Positions 14,743 through 24,570 of a stretch of DNA of 64,000 nt are shown piece by piece. The position numbers and the translations under genes were made by a program. Within the stretch, counting starts at the first letter, position 1; the number at the start of each line of letters is the position of its first letter. This DNA comes from Atlantibacter subterraneus (GTDB taxonomy: Bacteria; Pseudomonadota; Gammaproteobacteria; Enterobacterales; Enterobacteriaceae). Where the stretch lies: positions 992,001 through 1,056,000 of the forward strand of contig NZ_VLPS01000001.1 in assembly GCF_007570865.1 (NCBI RefSeq), read 5' to 3'. The notes beneath the pieces were generated by a model. The model ran no database searches, was not told the DNA's origin, and saw only the letters and a program-made list of their open reading frames with translations.

Positions 14743-14769
14743 ACCCGTCCTGTAGCAGGACGGGTTTTT
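14743..14769 (+). terminator. Rho-independent terminator of the rpfF-like gene
   Basis: CCCGTCCTG (14744-14752), loop TAG, CAGGACGGG (14756-14764), then five T: a perfect 9-bp stem. The T run overlaps the stop codon of the convergent ascG gene at 14768-14770. Confidence 0.9.
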
Positions 14770-15781
14770 AGCGATGCGGCCCGTCCTGCACCGAATCACG
14801 CTCCAGCAGCCGCGAAGAAAACAGGCTTTTGGTCGACAGATATCCGCCGTCCAGCATCGAAATCAGCCGCTCGATCACTTCGTTAATCATCTCGCTGACC
14901 GGATCTTTAATGCTCGACAGCGCAGGCTGCAGGAACGGCGCAGTGGCAATGTTATCGAAGCCGATAATCGAGACATCCCCCGGCACCGTCAGCCCGGCAC
15001 TGTTCAGGGTTTTCATCGCGCCAATCGCCATATCATCGTTACTGACCACCAGCCCGCTAAAGGGTAACGTTGCGCTCAGCAATTTCTCCGCCGCTTCCGC
15101 GCCGCTGGCCGGGGACCACTTGCCAAACGCAATCAGCGCATCGCGCACCGGCAACCCACTGGCGGTCAGCGCCGCTTTATAACCCGCCAGACGGTCAATC
15201 GCCGTCGGGGAGTCCATCGAGCCGGTGATAAACGCGATATCGCGGTGCCCGCGTTCAATCAGATGTGTGGTGGCCATAAAACTTGCGCCGTGGTGGTCGC
15301 AGCAGATGCAGTGGCTGTGATGCTTACGCAGCTTGCGGTTCATCACCATAATCGGCTGCTTATGCTTTTCAACGATGGCGTCCATCTCGTCGACGTTGAG
15401 AAAACGCGGGTAGATGATGATGGCGTCACAGCGCAGGTCGAGCAGGAAATCAATGGCGGCTTTTTCTTCTTCGGCGCTGTGCTTACCATCAACCAGAATC
15501 AGCTGTCGCCCGTTGGCTTCGAGCCTTTTCGCCGCCTGGGAGAGCAGTTCGCTAAAGTAGCTGCCGGTATACAGGGTGTTAGTCACCACCAGGCCGATGC
15601 ATTGCGATTTACTGGTCGCCAGATTGCGCGCCAGCAGGTTAGGGCGATAGCCGGTTTCCTCAATCGCTTTGTACACCAGCTCTTTGGTTTCTTCACTGGT
15701 ATAGCCCTTGCCAGAGAGTACCCGCGACACTGTCGCCTTTGATACGCCAGCTTTTTTCGCCACTTCCTGCATTGTAGACAT
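14768..15781 (-). CDS. ascG: LacI-family repressor of the beta-glucoside operon, AscG
   Basis: A 337-residue LacI/GalR regulator. Residues 1-60 are the DNA-binding head (MQEVAKKAGVSKATVSRVLSGKGY, hinge ETGYRPNLLARNL), followed by a periplasmic-binding-protein-like sugar domain (GLVVTNTLYTGSYFSELL; AFITGSMDSPTAIDRLAGY; VVSNDDMAIGAM). The sequence follows E. coli AscG closely as I recall it, and the gene is divergent from ascFB exactly as in E. coli. The start at 15781 was chosen because the longer frame to 15868 has a non-homologous leader. It represses ascFB until a beta-glucoside is present. Two operator-like palindromes lie in the intergenic region. Confidence 0.93.
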   Translation of the reverse strand: MSTMQEVAKKAGVSKATVSRVLSGKGYTSEETKELVYKAIEETGYRPNLLARNLATSKSQCIGLVVTNTLYTGSYFSELLSQAAKRLEANGRQLILVDGKHSAEEEKAAIDFLLDLRCDAIIIYPRFLNVDEMDAIVEKHKQPIMVMNRKLRKHHSHCICCDHHGASFMATTHLIERGHRDIAFITGSMDSPTAIDRLAGYKAALTASGLPVRDALIAFGKWSPASGAEAAEKLLSATLPFSGLVVSNDDMAIGAMKTLNSAGLTVPGDVSIIGFDNIATAPFLQPALSSIKDPVSEMINEVIERLISMLDGGYLSTKSLFSSRLLERDSVQDGPHR

Positions 15782-16115
15782 GAATCGATCCCGGACGGTG
15801 AGTACGCCAGCCATTCTACACAGTTTTAACCGAATGGCAGCGGCAGTTTTTACCAACCAGCGGCCCATACGCGTGGTTTTCGGCGATCTGAATCACAGAT
15901 TCAAAATCGTTTTTATTTTTGTGTTGAAAACAACACCTGATTTAACCACCCTTATGTGGAACCGGTTACCTATGCTGTTTCACTGAAAACGGCTTTTCAT
16001 GAAGTTATTATCTAACCCTATGAAAGTAATGACCTTACCCGGATAAATGCGCTGATTTTGTCGGCCAACAAGCACGGCGATAAAAAGACGGCAGGGCATT
16101 ACGCGAGAATCAGTC
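15782..16115. promoter_or_regulatory. Divergent ascG / ascFB control region with two AscG operators
   Basis: A 334-base region. Two LacI-family palindromes stand out: AACCGGTT at the centre of 15957-15970, and TGAAAACGGCTTTTCA at 15984-15999. Both resemble the AscG consensus I recall, TGAAACCGGTTTCA. Two other inverted repeats are present: TGAATC-N3-GATTCA (15889-15903) and GTGTTG-N4-CAACAC (15921-15936). The operators lie 117-159 bases upstream of the ascF start at 16116, consistent with blocking the ascF promoter. The repeats are direct observation; the binding assignment is by family. Confidence 0.65.
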
Positions 16116-17573
16116 ATGTCAAAAAATTATGCAGCAGTATCCCGCTCGATAGTGGATGCCATTGGCGGTGCGGACAATATCGCGTCGGTGACGCACTGCA
16201 TGACCCGTCTGCGCTTCGTGCTGAAAGACGATAGCGCGGCGGACATCGCAAAACTGAAAAGCATCAGCGGCGTGCTGGGGGTGGTGAACAACGATACCCA
16301 GTGCCAGGTGATCATCGGCAACACCGTGTCTCAGGCCTACGCCGAAGTGCTGAAACTGCTGCCGGAAGGCGCAGTCGCGCATAAGGCATTGCCGCAGAAA
16401 AATAAACTCACCCTGCGTCGCATCGGCGCGGGCATTCTCGATGCGCTGATCGGCACCATGTCGCCGTTAATCCCGGCGATTATCGGCGGCTCGATGCTGA
16501 AACTGCTGGCGATGATCCTCGACATGACCGGCGTGTTTGAAAAGGGCTCCTCAACGCTGATTATCCTCAACACCATCGGCGACGGCGCGTTCTTCTTCCT
16601 GCCGATCATGGTCGCGGCCTCGGCGGCGCTGAAATTCAAAACCAACATGTCGCTGGCGATTGCCATCGCAGGCGTGCTGGTACACCCGAACTTTATCGAC
16701 TTAATGGCGAAAGCCGCCCAGGGCCAGCACGTTGAATTTATGGGCCTGACGGTCACGGCGGTGAAATACACCTACACCGTGATCCCGGCACTGTGCATGA
16801 CTTGGATACTGTCGTACATCGAACGCTGGGTCGACAGAATTACCCCGGCGGTCACCAAAAACTTCCTTAAACCAATGCTGATTGTGCTGATTGCCGCGCC
16901 GATCGCGATTATGTTTATCGGCCCGGTAGGCATCTGGATCGGCAGCGGGATTTCTAAACTGGTGTACACCATTCACAGCCATCTGGGCTGGCTGTCGGTG
17001 GCGATTATGGGCGCTATCTGGCCGTTGCTGGTAATGACCGGGATGCACCGCGTGTTTACCCCCACCATTATTCAGACCATCGCCGAAACCGGCAAAGAGG
17101 GCATGGTGATGCCGTCGGAAATCGGTGCCAACCTGTCGCTGGGCGGTTCGTCGCTGGCGGTGGCCTGGCGTACCAAAAACCCGGAACTGCGCCAGACGGC
17201 GCTGGCCGCAGCGGCGTCCGCTATTGTCGCCGGGATCTCCGAACCGGCGCTGTACGGCGTGGCGCTGCGCCTTAAGCGTCCGCTGATCGCCTGCTTAATC
17301 ACCGGCTTTATTTGCGGCGCGGTGGCGGGTATCGGCGGGCTGGCCAGCCATTCCATGGCGTCGCCGGGGCTGTTCACCAGCGTCCAGTTCTTTGACCCGG
17401 CCAATCCGATGAGTATTGCCTGGGTGGTGGGCGTGATGATCCTGTCGGTGGTGATCTCTTTCTTCGTGACGCTGCTGCTGGGCTTTGAAGATATCCCGGT
17501 AGAAAAGTCGGCGGAAGCCGAACAACCCGCGTCTGCCAACCCGCAGATTGAACCGGCAGTAAAAGTTAATTAA
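16116..17573 (+). CDS. ascF: PTS beta-glucoside (cellobiose/arbutin/salicin) permease EIIBC, AscF
   Basis: A 485-residue phosphotransferase permease that imports and phosphorylates aryl-beta-glucosides. The N-terminal EIIB domain (1-90) has the phosphocysteine in SVTHCMTRLRF (Cys28). The EIIC membrane domain (about 105-465) has about ten hydrophobic segments, including GISEPALYGVALRLK. It has no EIIA domain, so phosphate must come from a glucose-type EIIA (Crr), as for E. coli AscF, which has the same domain plan. It is followed after 18 bases by ascB. Confidence 0.93.
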   Translation: MSKNYAAVSRSIVDAIGGADNIASVTHCMTRLRFVLKDDSAADIAKLKSISGVLGVVNNDTQCQVIIGNTVSQAYAEVLKLLPEGAVAHKALPQKNKLTLRRIGAGILDALIGTMSPLIPAIIGGSMLKLLAMILDMTGVFEKGSSTLIILNTIGDGAFFFLPIMVAASAALKFKTNMSLAIAIAGVLVHPNFIDLMAKAAQGQHVEFMGLTVTAVKYTYTVIPALCMTWILSYIERWVDRITPAVTKNFLKPMLIVLIAAPIAIMFIGPVGIWIGSGISKLVYTIHSHLGWLSVAIMGAIWPLLVMTGMHRVFTPTIIQTIAETGKEGMVMPSEIGANLSLGGSSLAVAWRTKNPELRQTALAAAASAIVAGISEPALYGVALRLKRPLIACLITGFICGAVAGIGGLASHSMASPGLFTSVQFFDPANPMSIAWVVGVMILSVVISFFVTLLLGFEDIPVEKSAEAEQPASANPQIEPAVKVN

Positions 17574-19022
<1,449 letters not shown>

Positions 19023-19060: not shown

Positions 19061-19287
19061 AACTTTCCCTGCCCATACCGCCCAATTTCCGTGGCTTGTT
19101 TTTACTCCCACGCGCTCGCAATCTTTGCAGTCACTTTTCACGACTTATCAACATTTCCTATGAAACTGTGCGATGCCTCGCAGCAATACGCTTTTTGCTG
19201 GTTGTTTTGCGACCATGATCACTTGACCAGTCAGGTAGACAAGTTCTAAGTTGAATACACCAACTCACTGATAACAGGGCGTATCGT

Positions 19288-20259
19288 ATGGGGTTTATTC
19301 GCACACTCACCGGTGACATCGCACCGCAGCAGCTCGGGGTGACCTACAGTCACGACCATCTTTACTGCATCCCGCCGTACTGGCAGGAGCGCAACGAAGA
19401 GGATCTGCTGCTCGACGATAAAGCCGCTTCCGAACGCGAACTGGCAGACTTCCGCGCCGCAGGCGGGAAGTCGATTTATGACGCTACCGCGCCGGACTAT
19501 GGCCGTCACGTTGAGGTGGTGGCGGAGATTGCCAGCCGTCAGCAGGTGCAAATCATAGCCACCGCCGGGTTTAATAAAGGCTTCCTGTGGAGCTCGAAGC
19601 GTCCGGGCACCGATCAGACCTTCGCCGACTGGATTGCCAACACCCCCCTCGATGCGCTGGTTGAACACGTCAGCCGGGAAGTAACCGACGGTATCGACGG
19701 CACCGCATACCGCGCCGGGATGGTGAAGTGCGGCACTGGTTATAACGCCATTTCGCCGCTGGAGCGTAAAACCATGGAAGTGGTGGTGCGCGCCCAACAG
19801 GCCACCCACGCGCCGATGCACAGCCATACGGAAATGGGCACCATGGCCCTGGAGCAGGCCGCGATTTTTAAACAACTGGGCCTTGATTTGTCCCGCATCT
19901 GCTTTGCACATATGGATCGCAATCCCGATCCCTGGCTACACCGTCAACTTGCCAACACCGGGGCATTTATCTCGTTTGACGGTATCAGCCGGATCAAATA
20001 TTTCCCCGAGCACGTCCGCACCGAGGCCATTCTGGCGCTGTGCAAGAAGGGGTATCAAAAACAGATCCTGATCGGCGGCGATTTCGCCCGCAAAAGCATG
20101 AGCGCCCATTATGGAAAAGGCGGGCTGGGATTGAAATTTATCCTGGCGGACTGGCGCCCACGGTTTCTTGAAGAAGCGCGGGAAGCGGGTTTTGACGGCG
20201 AAGCGCTGCTGCATGATTTCTTCGTCGAAAACCCGGCGCGCTACTTCAGCTTTGGTTAA
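19288..20259 (+). CDS. Phosphotriesterase-family (COG1735) metal-dependent hydrolase
   Basis: A 323-residue amidohydrolase-superfamily protein of the phosphotriesterase-homology type. Metal ligands are readable: HxH at His22/His24 (YSHDHLY), a bridging Lys near 148 (GMVKCGTGY), His in HSHTEMGTMAL near 178, His in FAHMDRNPD near 209, and Asp in LIGGDFARKS near 266. Known members of COG1735 include lactonases acting on phosphorylated sugar lactones, rather than true organophosphate hydrolases. First gene of a seven-gene operon with an ascorbate-type PTS, so a phosphorylated lactone or cyclic sugar derivative is a sensible guess for its substrate (inference). Confidence 0.85.
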   Translation: MGFIRTLTGDIAPQQLGVTYSHDHLYCIPPYWQERNEEDLLLDDKAASERELADFRAAGGKSIYDATAPDYGRHVEVVAEIASRQQVQIIATAGFNKGFLWSSKRPGTDQTFADWIANTPLDALVEHVSREVTDGIDGTAYRAGMVKCGTGYNAISPLERKTMEVVVRAQQATHAPMHSHTEMGTMALEQAAIFKQLGLDLSRICFAHMDRNPDPWLHRQLANTGAFISFDGISRIKYFPEHVRTEAILALCKKGYQKQILIGGDFARKSMSAHYGKGGLGLKFILADWRPRFLEEAREAGFDGEALLHDFFVENPARYFSFG

Positions 20260-20267
20260 GGCAGCCT

Positions 20268-20999
20268 ATGAAACTGCATCAGCTTAACGAGCAGCAGGCG
20301 AAAGCGGCCCTTCCCAGGGCCAGAATCGCGCTGCTGCCGCTGGGGGCGGTGGAGCCGCACGGCGATCACCTGCCGCTGGATACCGATAACCTGTTAGCAG
20401 AACGCTTTTGCGAACGGCTGGACAGCGCGCTGGGCGAGGATGCCATCACCCTGCCGGTGATCTCCTACAGCCAGGTGTGGTCGCTGCGCGGTCACGCCGG
20501 GGCGATTGATATCGGCAACGCGCTGCTGGGGGATCTGCTGGTCAGCCTGGCACGCAATATGGCGGGCTACGGCATTACCACCACGGCGGTGATCAACGCC
20601 CATTACGGCAATTTCGACGCCATCAAAGCGGCGGCCCGCCAGCTTCGCGAGGAGGGCATTACGCTGCTGAGTTACAGCTGGGCGGGGATGGACGGCTGCG
20701 TGGCGAAGCTGCGCGAATCGGCGGTGGCCTATCCTGGCTATATGCATGCCGATGAAATTGAAACGTCATTAATGCTGGCGCTCGCGCCGGAGGCGGTGGA
20801 TATGACCCAGGCCCGCGAGCATTACCCCGCGTTTCCGGAAGATTTCCGCTACCGCCCTGAGCCCTGGACCGCGTTTTCCGATTACTCGGTGCTCGGCGAC
20901 CCGCGCTGCGCCAGCGCGGAAAAAGGCGAGGCCTTTGTTCAACAGGCGCTGGAAACCACCTTAGCGTCCATCACGCGCATAATCAGGGAGGCGCAATGA
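20268..20999 (+). CDS. Creatininase-family amidohydrolase
   Basis: A 243-residue creatininase/MftE-type protein. Metal-binding signatures: GAVEPHGDHLPLDTDN (residues about 26-41), NAHYGNFDAI near 110, and HADEIETSLML near 158. Family members hydrolyse cyclic amides or formamide-type bonds (creatinine, FAPy intermediates), cleaving C-N bonds with a binuclear metal site. It overlaps the next gene by four bases (ATGA), so it is translationally coupled to the PTS genes. Two hydrolases of different folds beside a sugar PTS suggest a substrate with both a sugar part and an amide or lactone bond. Substrate unknown. Confidence 0.85.
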   Translation: MKLHQLNEQQAKAALPRARIALLPLGAVEPHGDHLPLDTDNLLAERFCERLDSALGEDAITLPVISYSQVWSLRGHAGAIDIGNALLGDLLVSLARNMAGYGITTTAVINAHYGNFDAIKAAARQLREEGITLLSYSWAGMDGCVAKLRESAVAYPGYMHADEIETSLMLALAPEAVDMTQAREHYPAFPEDFRYRPEPWTAFSDYSVLGDPRCASAEKGEAFVQQALETTLASITRIIREAQ

Positions 21000-21430
21000 T
21001 TAGCCCAAACGCAATCCATCTGGATTACCCGGCCACGTCTGCCGACGAGGCGATTCGTAAATCCGGGGATGCGCTGTGCGCCGCCGGAGCCTGTAGCGAG
21101 CAGTACACCCAGGCGATGATCGACAGCTATCACCAGTTCGGCCCCTATTTTGTGATTGCGCCGGGGCTGGCGATGCCCCACGCGCGGCCAGAGAACGGGG
21201 CGATTGCGCCGCAAATCAGCCTGGTGCGGCTGCGCGAGCCGGTGGAGTTTGGCCACGCGGAAAACGACCCGGTGCAGCTGGTGCTGGGGCTGTCCGCCAC
21301 CAACAGCGATCAGCATATTCAGTTAATTCAAAAAATCGTCACCCTGCTGGGTGATGAGGAAAACCTGCAAACCTTAATGAATTCCCATGATGCGCAGCAG
21401 ATTTACCGTCTGATGATCGATGCGGAATAA
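20996..21430 (+). CDS. PTS EIIA component (mannitol/fructose/ascorbate type)
   Basis: A 144-residue EIIA of the PtsN/UlaC fold. The phosphorylated histidine is His62 in GLAMPHARPE. It receives phosphate from HPr and passes it to the EIIB encoded next. Separate EIIA, EIIB and EIIC genes in this order, with a UlaA-like EIIC, mark it as an ascorbate/galactitol-superfamily PTS. Confidence 0.9.
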   Translation: MISPNAIHLDYPATSADEAIRKSGDALCAAGACSEQYTQAMIDSYHQFGPYFVIAPGLAMPHARPENGAIAPQISLVRLREPVEFGHAENDPVQLVLGLSATNSDQHIQLIQKIVTLLGDEENLQTLMNSHDAQQIYRLMIDAE

Positions 21431-21458
21431 ACCACTACGTCCGTCTGGAGAAATAACA

Positions 21459-21737
21459 ATGAAAATACTCACTGTCTGCGGTTTGGGAATGGGGTCGAGC
21501 TTAATTTTACGTATGAACGTGGAAACGGTGCTGAAAAAGCACGGCGTGGAAGCGAACGTCGAGCATATGGACGTCTCCGCCGCCGCGTCGGCGAATGCCG
21601 ATCTGGTGATCACCAACGCCGAGCTGGTGGGCAATTTACAGCATTTATCCTGCCCGGTGGTGGTGGTGAATAACTACATCGACACCAACGAAATCACCCA
21701 GGCGCTGGTTAACGCAGGCATTCTTACTCAGGGGTAA
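21459..21737 (+). CDS. PTS EIIB component (ascorbate type, UlaB-like)
   Basis: A 92-residue EIIB with the phosphocysteine Cys7 in the loop VCGLGMGSSL. The start at 21459 was chosen because it follows a GGAG site and begins directly at the first strand (MKILTVCG); the longer frame from 21420 overlaps the EIIA gene and adds an unrelated leader. Acts between EIIA and the EIIC permease. Confidence 0.9.
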   Translation: MKILTVCGLGMGSSLILRMNVETVLKKHGVEANVEHMDVSAAASANADLVITNAELVGNLQHLSCPVVVVNNYIDTNEITQALVNAGILTQG

Positions 21738-21741
21738 GACC

Positions 21742-23052
21742 ATGAACGAATTTATCGGCGTACTGCGTTGGATCACCGTCAATATCTTCGGCGAAGCGTC
21801 CATCCTGATTGGCCTGATCGTGCTGCTCGGGCTGGTGCTGCAAAACAAACCGCTGGCGGATATTGTCTCCGGCACCCTGAAGGGGATTTTAGGCTTTTTG
21901 ATTATTGGTGCCGGGGCGGGGATTATCGTCTCCGCGCTGCTGATCTTCCAGCCAATCTGGACCGAAGTGTTCGGCTTAAGCTCCATGAATCTGACCAACA
22001 TTATCGGCCAGGTGAAGTTCAGCGAGCGCTACGGCAGCAGCGTCACCATCGCTATCGCGGGCGGGTTCGCCTTCAACCTGCTGCTGGCGCGCCTGACGCG
22101 CTTTAAGTATATCTACCTGACCGGGCACATGATGTTCTGGACCACCATGATCTTCGCGGGCGTGATGGTTAACAGCAACCCGGCGATCTCCGGCTGGCAG
22201 TTAACGTTAATGCTCACCGTGATCATGGGCCTGTACTGGACGCTGCAACCGGCGCTGGTGCAGCCGTGGGTGCGCAAAATTACCGGCAACGACAATATTG
22301 CGCTCGGCCATACCTCGGCGTCGGTGGCGCTGCTGGGGGCGATTTTCGGCAAACTGTTTTCCCGCAACAGCATCAGTTCGGAAGATATCCAGGTGCCGAA
22401 AAAGCTCGGCTTCCTGCGTGATTCTAACGTGGTGACCGCCCTGACAATGACGCTGCTGTTCTTTATCGGCACCTTTATTCTGCAAATCAAAGGCACCCCG
22501 AAAGCGGCGGAGATCCTGGCGCAGTCCGGCGATTTAAGTTTTTACATCTACGCCCTCAAGCAGTCGCTGATGTTTACCGGCGGGATTGCGGTGGTGCTGC
22601 TCGGTGTGCGGATGTTTATCGGTGAAATGGTGCCGGCGTTTAACGGCATCGGCTCGCGACTGGTTCCCGGCGCGCGCCCCGCGCTGGACTGCCCGATCCT
22701 GTTTAACTTCGCGCCGAACGCGGTGGTGCTGGGTTTTGTGGGGGCATTTGTCGGCTCGCTGCTGTGGCTGACGCTGATCGGGCATTACACCGGCTACGTG
22801 TTTATCCCCAGCATGATCGTGATTTTCTTCCATGCGGGCACCGCCGGTGTATTTGGCAACGTCACGGGCGGCTATAAGGGCGCGCTGCTGGCGGGCTTTA
22901 TCACCTCGACGGTGGTGGCCTGGGGCCAATACTTCTGCGTCAGCTACTTCATCAATAACACCGTGCCGGATACCGCGCTGTGGGCCGGAGACAGCGATAT
23001 GTTCGTACTGTCGCCGCTGATTAGCGCCTTAACCCGTCTGCTGACGTTCTGA
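21742..23052 (+). CDS. PTS EIIC permease (ascorbate family, UlaA/SgaT-like)
   Basis: A 436-residue membrane protein with about 10-11 hydrophobic segments of the UlaA family (ILIGLIVLLGLVLQ; GILGFLIIGAGAG; the GEMVPAFNGIGSRLVPGARPALDCPILF motif near 295-325). UlaA itself carries L-ascorbate. The neighbouring genes are not the ula catabolic genes, so the sugar is probably different. Gap to EIIB is four bases. Confidence 0.9.
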   Translation: MNEFIGVLRWITVNIFGEASILIGLIVLLGLVLQNKPLADIVSGTLKGILGFLIIGAGAGIIVSALLIFQPIWTEVFGLSSMNLTNIIGQVKFSERYGSSVTIAIAGGFAFNLLLARLTRFKYIYLTGHMMFWTTMIFAGVMVNSNPAISGWQLTLMLTVIMGLYWTLQPALVQPWVRKITGNDNIALGHTSASVALLGAIFGKLFSRNSISSEDIQVPKKLGFLRDSNVVTALTMTLLFFIGTFILQIKGTPKAAEILAQSGDLSFYIYALKQSLMFTGGIAVVLLGVRMFIGEMVPAFNGIGSRLVPGARPALDCPILFNFAPNAVVLGFVGAFVGSLLWLTLIGHYTGYVFIPSMIVIFFHAGTAGVFGNVTGGYKGALLAGFITSTVVAWGQYFCVSYFINNTVPDTALWAGDSDMFVLSPLISALTRLLTF

Positions 23053-23063
23053 GGGAGATCACC

Positions 23064-23804
23064 ATGAGTCAGGCAGTTAACGCTTATTTTGAGCAGATCC
23101 AGCAAAAACTGGCCCAGCTGGCGGCGCAGCAGGAGACGCTCGACCGCGCCGCCCGGGCGATGCTCGACACGGTGCTGAAGGGCCGCAATCTGTTTGTGTT
23201 TGGCGCCAGCCACGCCGGGATTCTGGCGGAGGAGATGAGCTATCGCGCAGGCGGCCTGGCAATCGTCAACCCGCTGTTTTCCCCGGCGCTGATGCTCAAC
23301 GTGCGCCCGCTTACGCTCACCAGCGCAGTAGAAAATGTCGAAGGGCTGGGGAAAGTGATGGTGGAAAGCTCCCCGCTGGAGGCGGGGGACACGCTGATTA
23401 TCCATTCGGTCTCGGGGCGCAACGCCATCACCCTCGACGTGGCGCTGGCGGCCAAAGCCTGCGGTGCGACGGTGATCGCCATTACCAGCCTGGAAACCGC
23501 GAAGCGCGTTACCTCGCGCCACTCCAGCGGCAAACTGCTGGCCGGGACAGCGGACATCACGCTGGATAACCAGTGCGACTACGGCGACGCGGCGGTTAGC
23601 CTGCCGGGCCTGGCGCAGAAAGCCGCGCCGCTGTCGACCATTATGGGGGCGACCATCGCCAACAGCCTGGTGCTGCGCTTGTGCGAGCTGATGCAGGAAA
23701 ACGGCGTGGAGCCGCCGATCCTTGCCAGCGCAAACATAGACGGCAATCAGCAGATAAATCGGGATATAATGGACGCTTACCGGAGCCGAATCTTCTACCT
23801 CTGA
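23064..23804 (+). CDS. SIS-domain sugar-phosphate-binding protein
   Basis: A 246-residue protein of the sugar isomerase (SIS) fold (UPF0309-type). The phosphosugar loop is near residues 50-75 (FVFGASHAGILAEEMSYRAGG) and the second SIS motif near 110-120 (LIIHSVSGRNAITLDVAL). SIS proteins isomerise, deaminate or bind phosphosugars; the enzyme activity here is not evident. Its place after the PTS genes suggests it acts on the imported phosphosugar after the hydrolases. Confidence 0.8.
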   Translation: MSQAVNAYFEQIQQKLAQLAAQQETLDRAARAMLDTVLKGRNLFVFGASHAGILAEEMSYRAGGLAIVNPLFSPALMLNVRPLTLTSAVENVEGLGKVMVESSPLEAGDTLIIHSVSGRNAITLDVALAAKACGATVIAITSLETAKRVTSRHSSGKLLAGTADITLDNQCDYGDAAVSLPGLAQKAAPLSTIMGATIANSLVLRLCELMQENGVEPPILASANIDGNQQINRDIMDAYRSRIFYL

Positions 23805-23817
23805 GTGGAGCAACCGT

Positions 23818-24570
23818 ATGTTCGAGTCTGATGGACTCCCGCTTTATCTCAAAATCAAAAACATCATTTTGCAGCGTATTTTGTCGTGTACCTATACCGA
23901 CAGGCTGCCCGGCGAGTTGATCCTGGCCGATGAGTTTAATGTGGCGCGCGGCACCATTAAGCAGGCGATCGATTCACTGGTCAGCGGCGGGATGGTGTAT
24001 CGCGAGCAGGGGAAGGGCACGTTCATCAACCGCGACGCGCTGCTCAAGCACTATACCGATCTACCGGATGTGCTGGTGGCCTTCGGCACGCCTCAGCCGG
24101 TCCAGGCTGAGGTGATTTCCCTGCTGGCAACCATGGCGGACCACGATGTTGCCCGGCAGATGGGGCTGGAGGTCGGTAGCCAGCTGATGCGGCTGGAGCG
24201 GCGTATGCTGCAGGGCGACCGCATCGTTGGCCATTCCCTGAGCTGGTTGAATAGCCGCTTTTATAACGATCTCAGCCATATTGATGATGAAGGCACGCTC
24301 TACTCCCAACTGCGCGAAGCCTTTGGTTATTCGCCGACCCACGCCCGGGAAAACTTTGCGCCGGTGGTCTGCGATCCGCGCCTGGCGCGCCTGCTGGGCT
24401 GTGAGCCGGGTGAGGCACTGTTCAAAATCGAACGTATCGCACGCAATCCCGATGATGTGGTGCTGGAATACAGCATTACCTACGTTAAAAACGCCACGCT
24501 GTCGCTGGAGATTGCCGCTAACCAGAATGCGGCGGACGCGCACTGGAACTGTAAAATCGTTGCCCGCTAA
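23818..24570 (+). CDS. GntR/HutC-family (UTRA) regulator of the PTS-hydrolase operon
   Basis: A 250-residue regulator. The N-terminal GntR winged helix (about 5-70: LPLYLKIKNIILQRI, LPGELILADEFNVARGTIKQAIDSL, YREQGKGTFI) is followed by a UTRA ligand-binding domain (about 90-245: MRLERRMLQGDRIVGHS, LFKIERIARNPDDVVLEYSITYV). UTRA domains normally bind a phosphorylated sugar. Last gene of the operon, so it probably regulates it by autogenous control with the imported phosphosugar as inducer. Confidence 0.9.
   Translation: MFESDGLPLYLKIKNIILQRILSCTYTDRLPGELILADEFNVARGTIKQAIDSLVSGGMVYREQGKGTFINRDALLKHYTDLPDVLVAFGTPQPVQAEVISLLATMADHDVARQMGLEVGSQLMRLERRMLQGDRIVGHSLSWLNSRFYNDLSHIDDEGTLYSQLREAFGYSPTHARENFAPVVCDPRLARLLGCEPGEALFKIERIARNPDDVVLEYSITYVKNATLSLEIAANQNAADAHWNCKIVAR

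Follow-up and report, generated by a model that had tools for sequence, protein, structure and literature searches.

Gene Content and Organization of the Locus

The present analysis concerns a seven-gene operon on a 64,000-nt stretch of the Atlantibacter subterraneus genome (assembly GCF_007570865.1, contig NZ_VLPS01000001.1, positions 992,001 to 1,056,000), referred to below as the window. The operon combines a phosphotransferase system (PTS) with two hydrolases, a SIS-domain protein and a regulator, and it may import an amide-bearing sugar lactone and convert it to 2-keto-3-deoxy-6-phosphogluconate (KDPG). The genome carrying the window is 4.6 Mb in size, and the nearest named proteins and loci are those of Atlantibacter. 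All seven open reading frames (ORFs) lie on the + strand in the order phosphotriesterase-like hydrolase (PTE), creatininase-family hydrolase (CRE), EIIA, EIIB, EIIC, SIS protein and GntR/UTRA regulator, and each product exceeded its Pfam cut-off in a profile scan:

19220..19237, + strand: palindromic operator-like site CACTTGA-CCAG-TCAGGTA, 50 nt ahead of the PTE start; predicted GntR/UTRA site
19288..20259, + strand: PTE-like metal hydrolase, predicted phospho-sugar lactonase; PF02126, 156 bits (cut-off 22.4)
20268..20999, + strand: creatininase-family hydrolase, predicted amide hydrolase; PF02633, 196 bits (cut-off 31.3)
20996..21430, + strand: PTS EIIA; PF00359 (PTS_EIIA_2), 113 bits (cut-off 27)
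21459..21737, + strand: PTS EIIB; PF02302 (PTS_IIB), 59 bits (cut-off 23.6), scored on the longer ORF 21420-21737
21742..23052, + strand: PTS EIIC, UlaA/Gat-type permease; PF03611 (EIIC-GAT), 363 bits (cut-off 24.2)
23064..23804, + strand: SIS-domain protein, NagS-like, predicted C2/C3 dehydratase of an aldonate phosphate; PF13580 (SIS_2), 130 bits (cut-off 27)
23818..24570, + strand: GntR/UTRA regulator, final gene of the operon; PF07702 (UTRA), 90 bits (cut-off 23.8), and PF00392 (GntR), 47 bits (cut-off 27)

For EIIB, an internal ATG at 21459, which follows a stretch resembling a ribosome-binding site as judged by eye, was preferred over 21420. With this start the intergenic gaps range from -4 to 28 nt, in agreement with the tightly spaced seven-gene operon described in the first-pass annotation. 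The permease resembles ascorbate carriers, as EIIC scored 471 bits against NF006919 (ascorbate IIC, cut-off 380) and 162 bits against UlaA in the PDB (4rp8). The best NCBIfam match of EIIA was PRK10372 (ascorbate IIA), at 118 bits and under the cut-off of 187.

The Two Hydrolases and the SIS Protein

The closest PDB match of the window PTE is 3pnz (398 bits; runner-up 147 bits), which we take to be the Listeria phospho-sugar lactonase Lmo2620, an enzyme reportedly acting on D-lyxono- and L-ribono-1,4-lactone-5-phosphate. Its putative metal ligands (H22, H24, K147, H180, H208 and D265) match what is presumably the binuclear ligand pattern of phospho-furanose lactonases (HxH, Lys, His, His, Asp), and the pattern was kept in 87 of 91 rows, one of 91 ORFs having been discarded on length. 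Against the phospho-furanose lactonase model NF045706 the protein reached 178.7 bits, below the equivalog cut-off of 630, and on this score it is not assigned to that equivalog. At the positions of the residues that we assume to bind phosphate in Lmo2620 (Lys242, Lys244, Arg275 and Tyr278), the window PTE carries R235, K237, R268 and M271; two are kept, with Lys replaced by Arg and Tyr by Met. Across the 91 rows the pattern at these positions was KKRY in 61, RKRM in 25 and another one in 5.

Both the Pfam cut-off and the predicted fold place CRE in the creatininase superfamily PF02633; the structure model has a predicted local distance difference test (pLDDT) score of 96.7 and template modelling (TM) scores of 0.78 to 3a6d and 0.83 to 3lub. 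Residues E29, H31, D40, H112, H160, E163 and E165 were invariant in 80 of 80 rows, one of which duplicates the window (4 of 83 ORFs were discarded on length). Creatininases open cyclic amides. The protein scored 98.7 bits against the creatininase equivalog TIGR04448, below its cut-off of 235, and its match to the IolN model was weak (56 bits, cut-off 245). The position of creatininase Glu122, which we take to be a metal ligand, corresponds to G114 in the window, and across the rows it is occupied by Gly (75), Ala (4) or Ser (1).

The SIS protein scored 273 bits against NF002805 (cut-off 135), and its closest solved protein is SCO4393 (NagS, an N-acetylglucosamine 6-phosphate dehydratase; PDB 9eol, 181 bits). 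Alignment of 63 rows, consisting of the window and 62 ORFs from a simple ORF caller, showed residues H50, R61, S87, E90, S115, S117, D175 and N224, which occupy eight of the nine NagS active-site positions checked, to be invariant in all 63. For Streptomyces NagS it is reported that the variants H53A, R64A, E94A and D179A are inactive, and that 6-phosphogluconate, an aldonate phosphate, binds the enzyme as a competitive inhibitor with a Ki of 0.28 mM (PMC12680351). The four essential residues correspond to H50, R61, E90 and D175 of the window protein and were present in 63 of 63 rows. NagS orthologues form, according to the same study, a clade of Streptomycetaceae with at least 58.7% identity (PMC12680351); the window protein lies outside it, its nearest named relatives being from Enterobacterales. 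Its gene neighbours also differ from those of NagS (PMC12680351). The SIS protein is thus predicted from its sequence to work like NagS, without being assigned as NagS itself. A Deinococcus SIS protein, 26% identical, keeps by eye the equivalents of H53, R64, E94 and D179, and not those of Ser91 or Ser121.

Distribution and Conservation of the Gene Set

The best 80 of 288 confirmed PTE matches were taken as the sample of loci, and component searches were run for each locus. They comprised 68 PTS-type loci, 11 with an ABC transporter and FGGY kinase (ABC/FGGY-type) and one short locus with neither; CRE was present in 78 of the 80. PTE, CRE, EIIC and SIS occurred together in 66 of the 68 PTS-type loci, where the individual counts were 68 for EIIB, 67 for CRE, 66 each for SIS and EIIA, 48 for BglG, 19 for GntR (including regulators of adjoining genes), 9 for CutC and 7 each for NagA and NagB. 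The ABC/FGGY-type loci carried CRE in 10 cases and the FGGY kinase in 10.

The order found in the window is shared by 13 gammaproteobacterial loci (L016-L028), and the prevailing order in Bacillota is BglG, IIA, IIB, IIC, PTE, CRE, (aldolase), SIS. Since one core set is kept in two gene orders, a shared function can be argued. Pairwise distances of PTE, CRE, IIC and SIS also correlate (r 0.83-0.96 over 68 loci, i.e., the window, L012 and 66 others, uncorrected for shared ancestry). The six core genes co-occur in Listeria monocytogenes and many Bacillota. The L. monocytogenes operon next to tuf (BglG, EIIA, EIIB, EIIC, PTE, CRE, KDGP aldolase, SIS) has the same six and a PTE 57% identical to that of the window, but differs in its BglG-type regulator, its gene order and the presence of an aldolase gene. 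We presume that it corresponds to lmo2646-lmo2651 or so and that its PTE is Lmo2620 (3pnz).

The operon is rare in the family of the window's genome, where CRE was matched at E 1e-70 in 5 of 246 genomes, a count that takes in this genome and others of its genus. For PTE, 19 of the 398 genomes in the class of Bacillus methanolicus (G063, L037) gave a match at E 1e-110 or better. Megablast against complete E. coli genomes gave no match to the operon. PTE matched 174 plasmid records, none at 60% identity or above; among the records filed as plasmids, the Listeria ones (L012, L013 and NZ_CP030101.1) resemble a chromosome or chromosome segments.

Several loci present further features. The PTE copy is split over two frames in a genome of the same genus (L007, G002) and contains internal stops in one of the same family (L008, G032), so that the gene seems to be decaying in places. 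A record labelled Citrobacter freundii M-21 (L018) is probably misnamed, given its Atlantibacter gene neighbourhood and a PTE 93% identical. A CutC-family gene lies 19-442 nt past SIS in six loci (L052, L059, L061, L073, L074 and L088), where it may act on a sugar phosphate. In Paenibacillus (L049, L064, L079, L087 and L090) a gene reading by eye as PTS enzyme I is found near the operon. In Alphaproteobacteria (L030-L033 and L086) a second PTE, about 40% identical, is divergently oriented to this one, and CRE, RpiR, an ABC transporter and an FGGY kinase are also present; the L030 CRE is 54% identical to that of a second Listeria operon.

Aldolases and the Amino-Sugar Context

In 25 of the 68 PTS-type loci, CRE and SIS flank a KDGP-aldolase-like (DagF-like) gene. 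The two proteins scanned (L012 and L014) exceeded the PF07071 cut-off and scored 167-171 bits against the DagF equivalog, whose cut-off is 300. The second Listeria operon has between PTE and CRE an Eda-type aldolase, in two frames and unrelated to the DagF kind, and in Deinococcus a row of PTE, Eda-type aldolase and SIS stands behind a kinase and two oxidoreductases. In the tables of a 2010 Listeria pan-genome study, lmo1968, lmo1969 and lmo1970 are given as creatininase-, KDPG-aldolase- and phosphotriesterase-like, respectively (PMC2996996). The occurrence in like operons of two unrelated aldolases named for one reaction points to KDPG or a close analogue as the product. The first-pass annotation, which saw no known catabolic enzymes in the set and proposed a sugar lactone, lactam or amide-linked sugar as substrate, is upheld in part. 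The window operon does lack such enzymes, the nearest PTE structure is 3pnz, presumably a phospho-sugar lactonase, and the second hydrolase has a creatininase fold; elsewhere, however, an aldolase is part of the set. The own genome holds three Eda-family matches elsewhere, as well as a DgaF gene adjoining a DgaE-family gene away from the operon.

The D-glucosaminate route (DgaE, DgaF) has a comparable exit, with a DagF-family aldolase at its end. A PF07071-like match was found in 11 other plasmid records, and the five viewed contained DgaE in 5/5, a deacetylase-like gene in 4/5 and a lactonase-like gene in 1/5. The last is a Klebsiella cluster (L109) of deacetylase-like, DgaE, KDGP aldolase and lactonase-like genes, which unites deacetylase and lactonase roles and, on its gene content, fills four of the proposed roles with other families: a pyridoxal phosphate (PLP) ammonia-lyase where the window has SIS, an amidohydrolase-superfamily deacetylase where it has the creatininase family, and a 6-phosphogluconolactonase-like beta-propeller where it has PTE.

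Amino-sugar genes also adjoin the operon itself in some cases. NagA and/or NagB genes lie downstream in L059, L063, L093 and L095 (in L059 behind the CutC gene). In four loci from Planococcus or Planomicrobium they lie upstream, and so does a GntR gene. Among 42 plasmid records with a relative of SIS, seven were viewed: nagA stood in the same gene run in two (L116 and L118), an amidohydrolase in one, PTE and oxidoreductases in two, a PTS alone in one, and one had no partner.

Regulation and Genomic Setting

The consensus CACTTGAN4TCAAGTG was searched for with up to two mismatches. The window and 12 of the 13 gammaproteobacterial loci each contain a single such site, 50-53 nt 5' of the start of PTE, against 0 of 300 single-base shuffles each; the Vibrio locus L028 has none. 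The window considered alone gives a modest signal: it is a single site read on either strand, and at up to three mismatches its match count was equalled by 4 of 100 dinucleotide shuffles. The only other match in the genome, with three mismatches, falls in a region where the main ORF looks by eye like an outer-membrane assembly protein, and this match is probably due to chance; the GntR/UTRA regulon thus looks confined to the window operon. A promoter scan reported none at the palindrome; TTGACC was seen by eye inside it and no promoter is claimed.

Upstream of the operon lies a beta-glucoside PTS and GH1-like pair (16116-19022), with a LacI-type gene nearby (14768-15868), and downstream a dimethyl-sulfoxide-reductase-like operon, all three read by eye.

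Proposed Pathway and Alternative Explanations

We propose, at a probability of roughly 0.38, that the operon imports and phosphorylates an amide-bearing sugar lactone and converts it to KDPG, which would be split by an aldolase encoded elsewhere. The likeliest substrate class, judging from the gene content, would be a 2-acylamino-2-deoxy-hexonolactone. EIIABC would import it and yield the lactone phosphate, and PTE would open the ring to an N-acyl-amino-aldonate phosphate. SIS would then remove water across C2/C3, and CRE would hydrolyze the amide, freeing an enamine that would give KDPG and ammonia. Finally, an Eda- or DgaF-type aldolase would produce pyruvate and glyceraldehyde-3-phosphate. 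Repression by the GntR/UTRA protein would act via the palindrome. What the sequences show is the gene set and its conservation, the residues, the aldolase genes and the palindrome. We consider import, phosphorylation and opening of the lactone likely, whereas amide hydrolysis, dehydration by SIS and the exit through KDPG are inferences.

A number of observations weigh against this proposal. The most serious is that SIS is lacking in all 11 ABC/FGGY-type loci of the 80 (flanks end within 9 kb); it is also lacking in the second Listeria operon and in Alicyclobacillus L014, which suggests that it is dispensable in some versions. The kinase-type Deinococcus locus L111 does carry it. In some loci SIS occurs with neither PTE nor CRE in view, and in Deinococcus and at two loci of Bacteroidota PTE and SIS are both seen but CRE is not in view. 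The window SIS has Ala at the ninth active-site position (NagS Ser54), as do 13 rows in all, the other 50 having Ser. NagS itself reportedly leaves 6-phosphogluconate unconverted, and activity on N-acetylglucosamine 6-phosphate was absent or negligible in three of its homologues (26-36% identity) (PMC12680351). As to the exit, the window operon has no aldolase gene, and an Eda-family gene was present anyway in 37 of the 39 genomes of Bacillota tested. The two genomes lacking Eda both carry an in-operon aldolase (15/39 overall), which was rejected as proof of its role, as chance would give this at about 0.14 by a hand calculation. Furthermore, the reported substrates of Lmo2620 are pentonolactone phosphates without nitrogen.

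A supply of substrate from oxidised chitin through the host's own lytic polysaccharide monooxygenase (LPMO) was also considered and is unsupported. LPMO_10 was found in 48 of 398 genomes of the G063 class and in 9 of 48 genomes reached via fetched loci, but it is not enriched among PTE genomes, another point against the proposal: it occurred in 1 of 19 (G565) compared to 47 of 379 others (Fisher p 0.71, assuming that both draws of 398 genomes are identical). The ong pathway for oxidised chitin in Pseudoalteromonas also leads from N-acetyl-glucosaminate to KDPG, acetate and ammonia; however, phosphorylation there comes after deacetylation and deamination, the enzyme families are other ones, and an SSS transporter takes the place of the PTS (PMC9537276).

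Four other explanations have to be weighed. A nitrogen-free aldonolactone (e.g., lyxono-, mannono- or gulono-1,4-lactone) could be opened by PTE once phosphorylated, with SIS dehydrating or isomerising the acid and CRE performing a non-amide hydrolysis, as IolN reportedly does. The Lmo2620 substrates, the weak IolN match of the window CRE and the Deinococcus and two Bacteroidota loci with no CRE in view, which join oxidoreductases to PTE and SIS, are in line with this. It appears rather unlikely all the same, as the near-constant presence of CRE argues that a second hydrolysis is regularly needed, and the PF07071 aldolases found elsewhere adjoin DgaE in every locus viewed, an amino-aldonate context. 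Ordinary ascorbate uptake and use, which the ascorbate IIC match and the UlaA-type EIIC with separate EIIA and EIIB, as in the E. coli ula operon, might suggest, is extremely unlikely, and ascorbate was rejected as the main substrate. None of the ula catabolic enzymes is among the seven genes, and UlaD (3-keto-gulonate-6-phosphate decarboxylase) was not found in a genome search for the OMPdecase family, since its sole member reads by eye as pyrF from sequence and neighbour.

Alternatively, the PTS could import a fructosyl-amino-acid lactam or similar Amadori or opine compound, with CRE opening the lactam and SIS acting as a deglycase. SIS-domain deglycases are part of the fructose-asparagine and fructoselysine operons, and creatininases do open cyclic amides; still, the window SIS is of the NF002805/NagS kind, and neither the KDGP aldolase nor the nagA/nagB neighbours nor the lactonase would be expected, making this distinctly unlikely. 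Even less probable is the salvage of cell-wall amino sugars, in which SIS would be a MurQ-like etherase and CRE would open a lactam such as muramic lactam. The reported relationship of NagS to MurQ (PMC12680351) and the nagA/nagB genes close by in some loci agree with it, but it has no role for the lactonase and the KDGP aldolase, and import by a UlaA-type EIIC would be unusual.

Biological Significance

The conversion of an amide-bearing lactone to KDPG may represent an undescribed and widespread pathway by which N-acyl amino-sugar-acid lactones are used with phosphorylation. A SIS dehydratase and a creatininase-family amidase would here replace the deacetylase and the PLP ammonia-lyase known from the glucosaminate and oxidised-chitin routes, so that an amino-aldonate phosphate would reach KDPG free of PLP; we regard this wider claim as doubtful. 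In accordance with the first-pass annotation, which knew of no described pathway with this exact set, our literature search, covering few subscription journals, found no paper on such a pathway; the Listeria pan-genome study tabulates single genes (PMC2996996). Nor did the search find a reaction assigned to the SIS family or to this creatininase branch in such a setting. The proposal provides a definite and cheaply testable hypothesis for a gene set common to Enterobacterales, Vibrio and many Bacillota. If true, it would add to the known ways in which bacteria obtain both carbon and nitrogen from amino-sugar acids.

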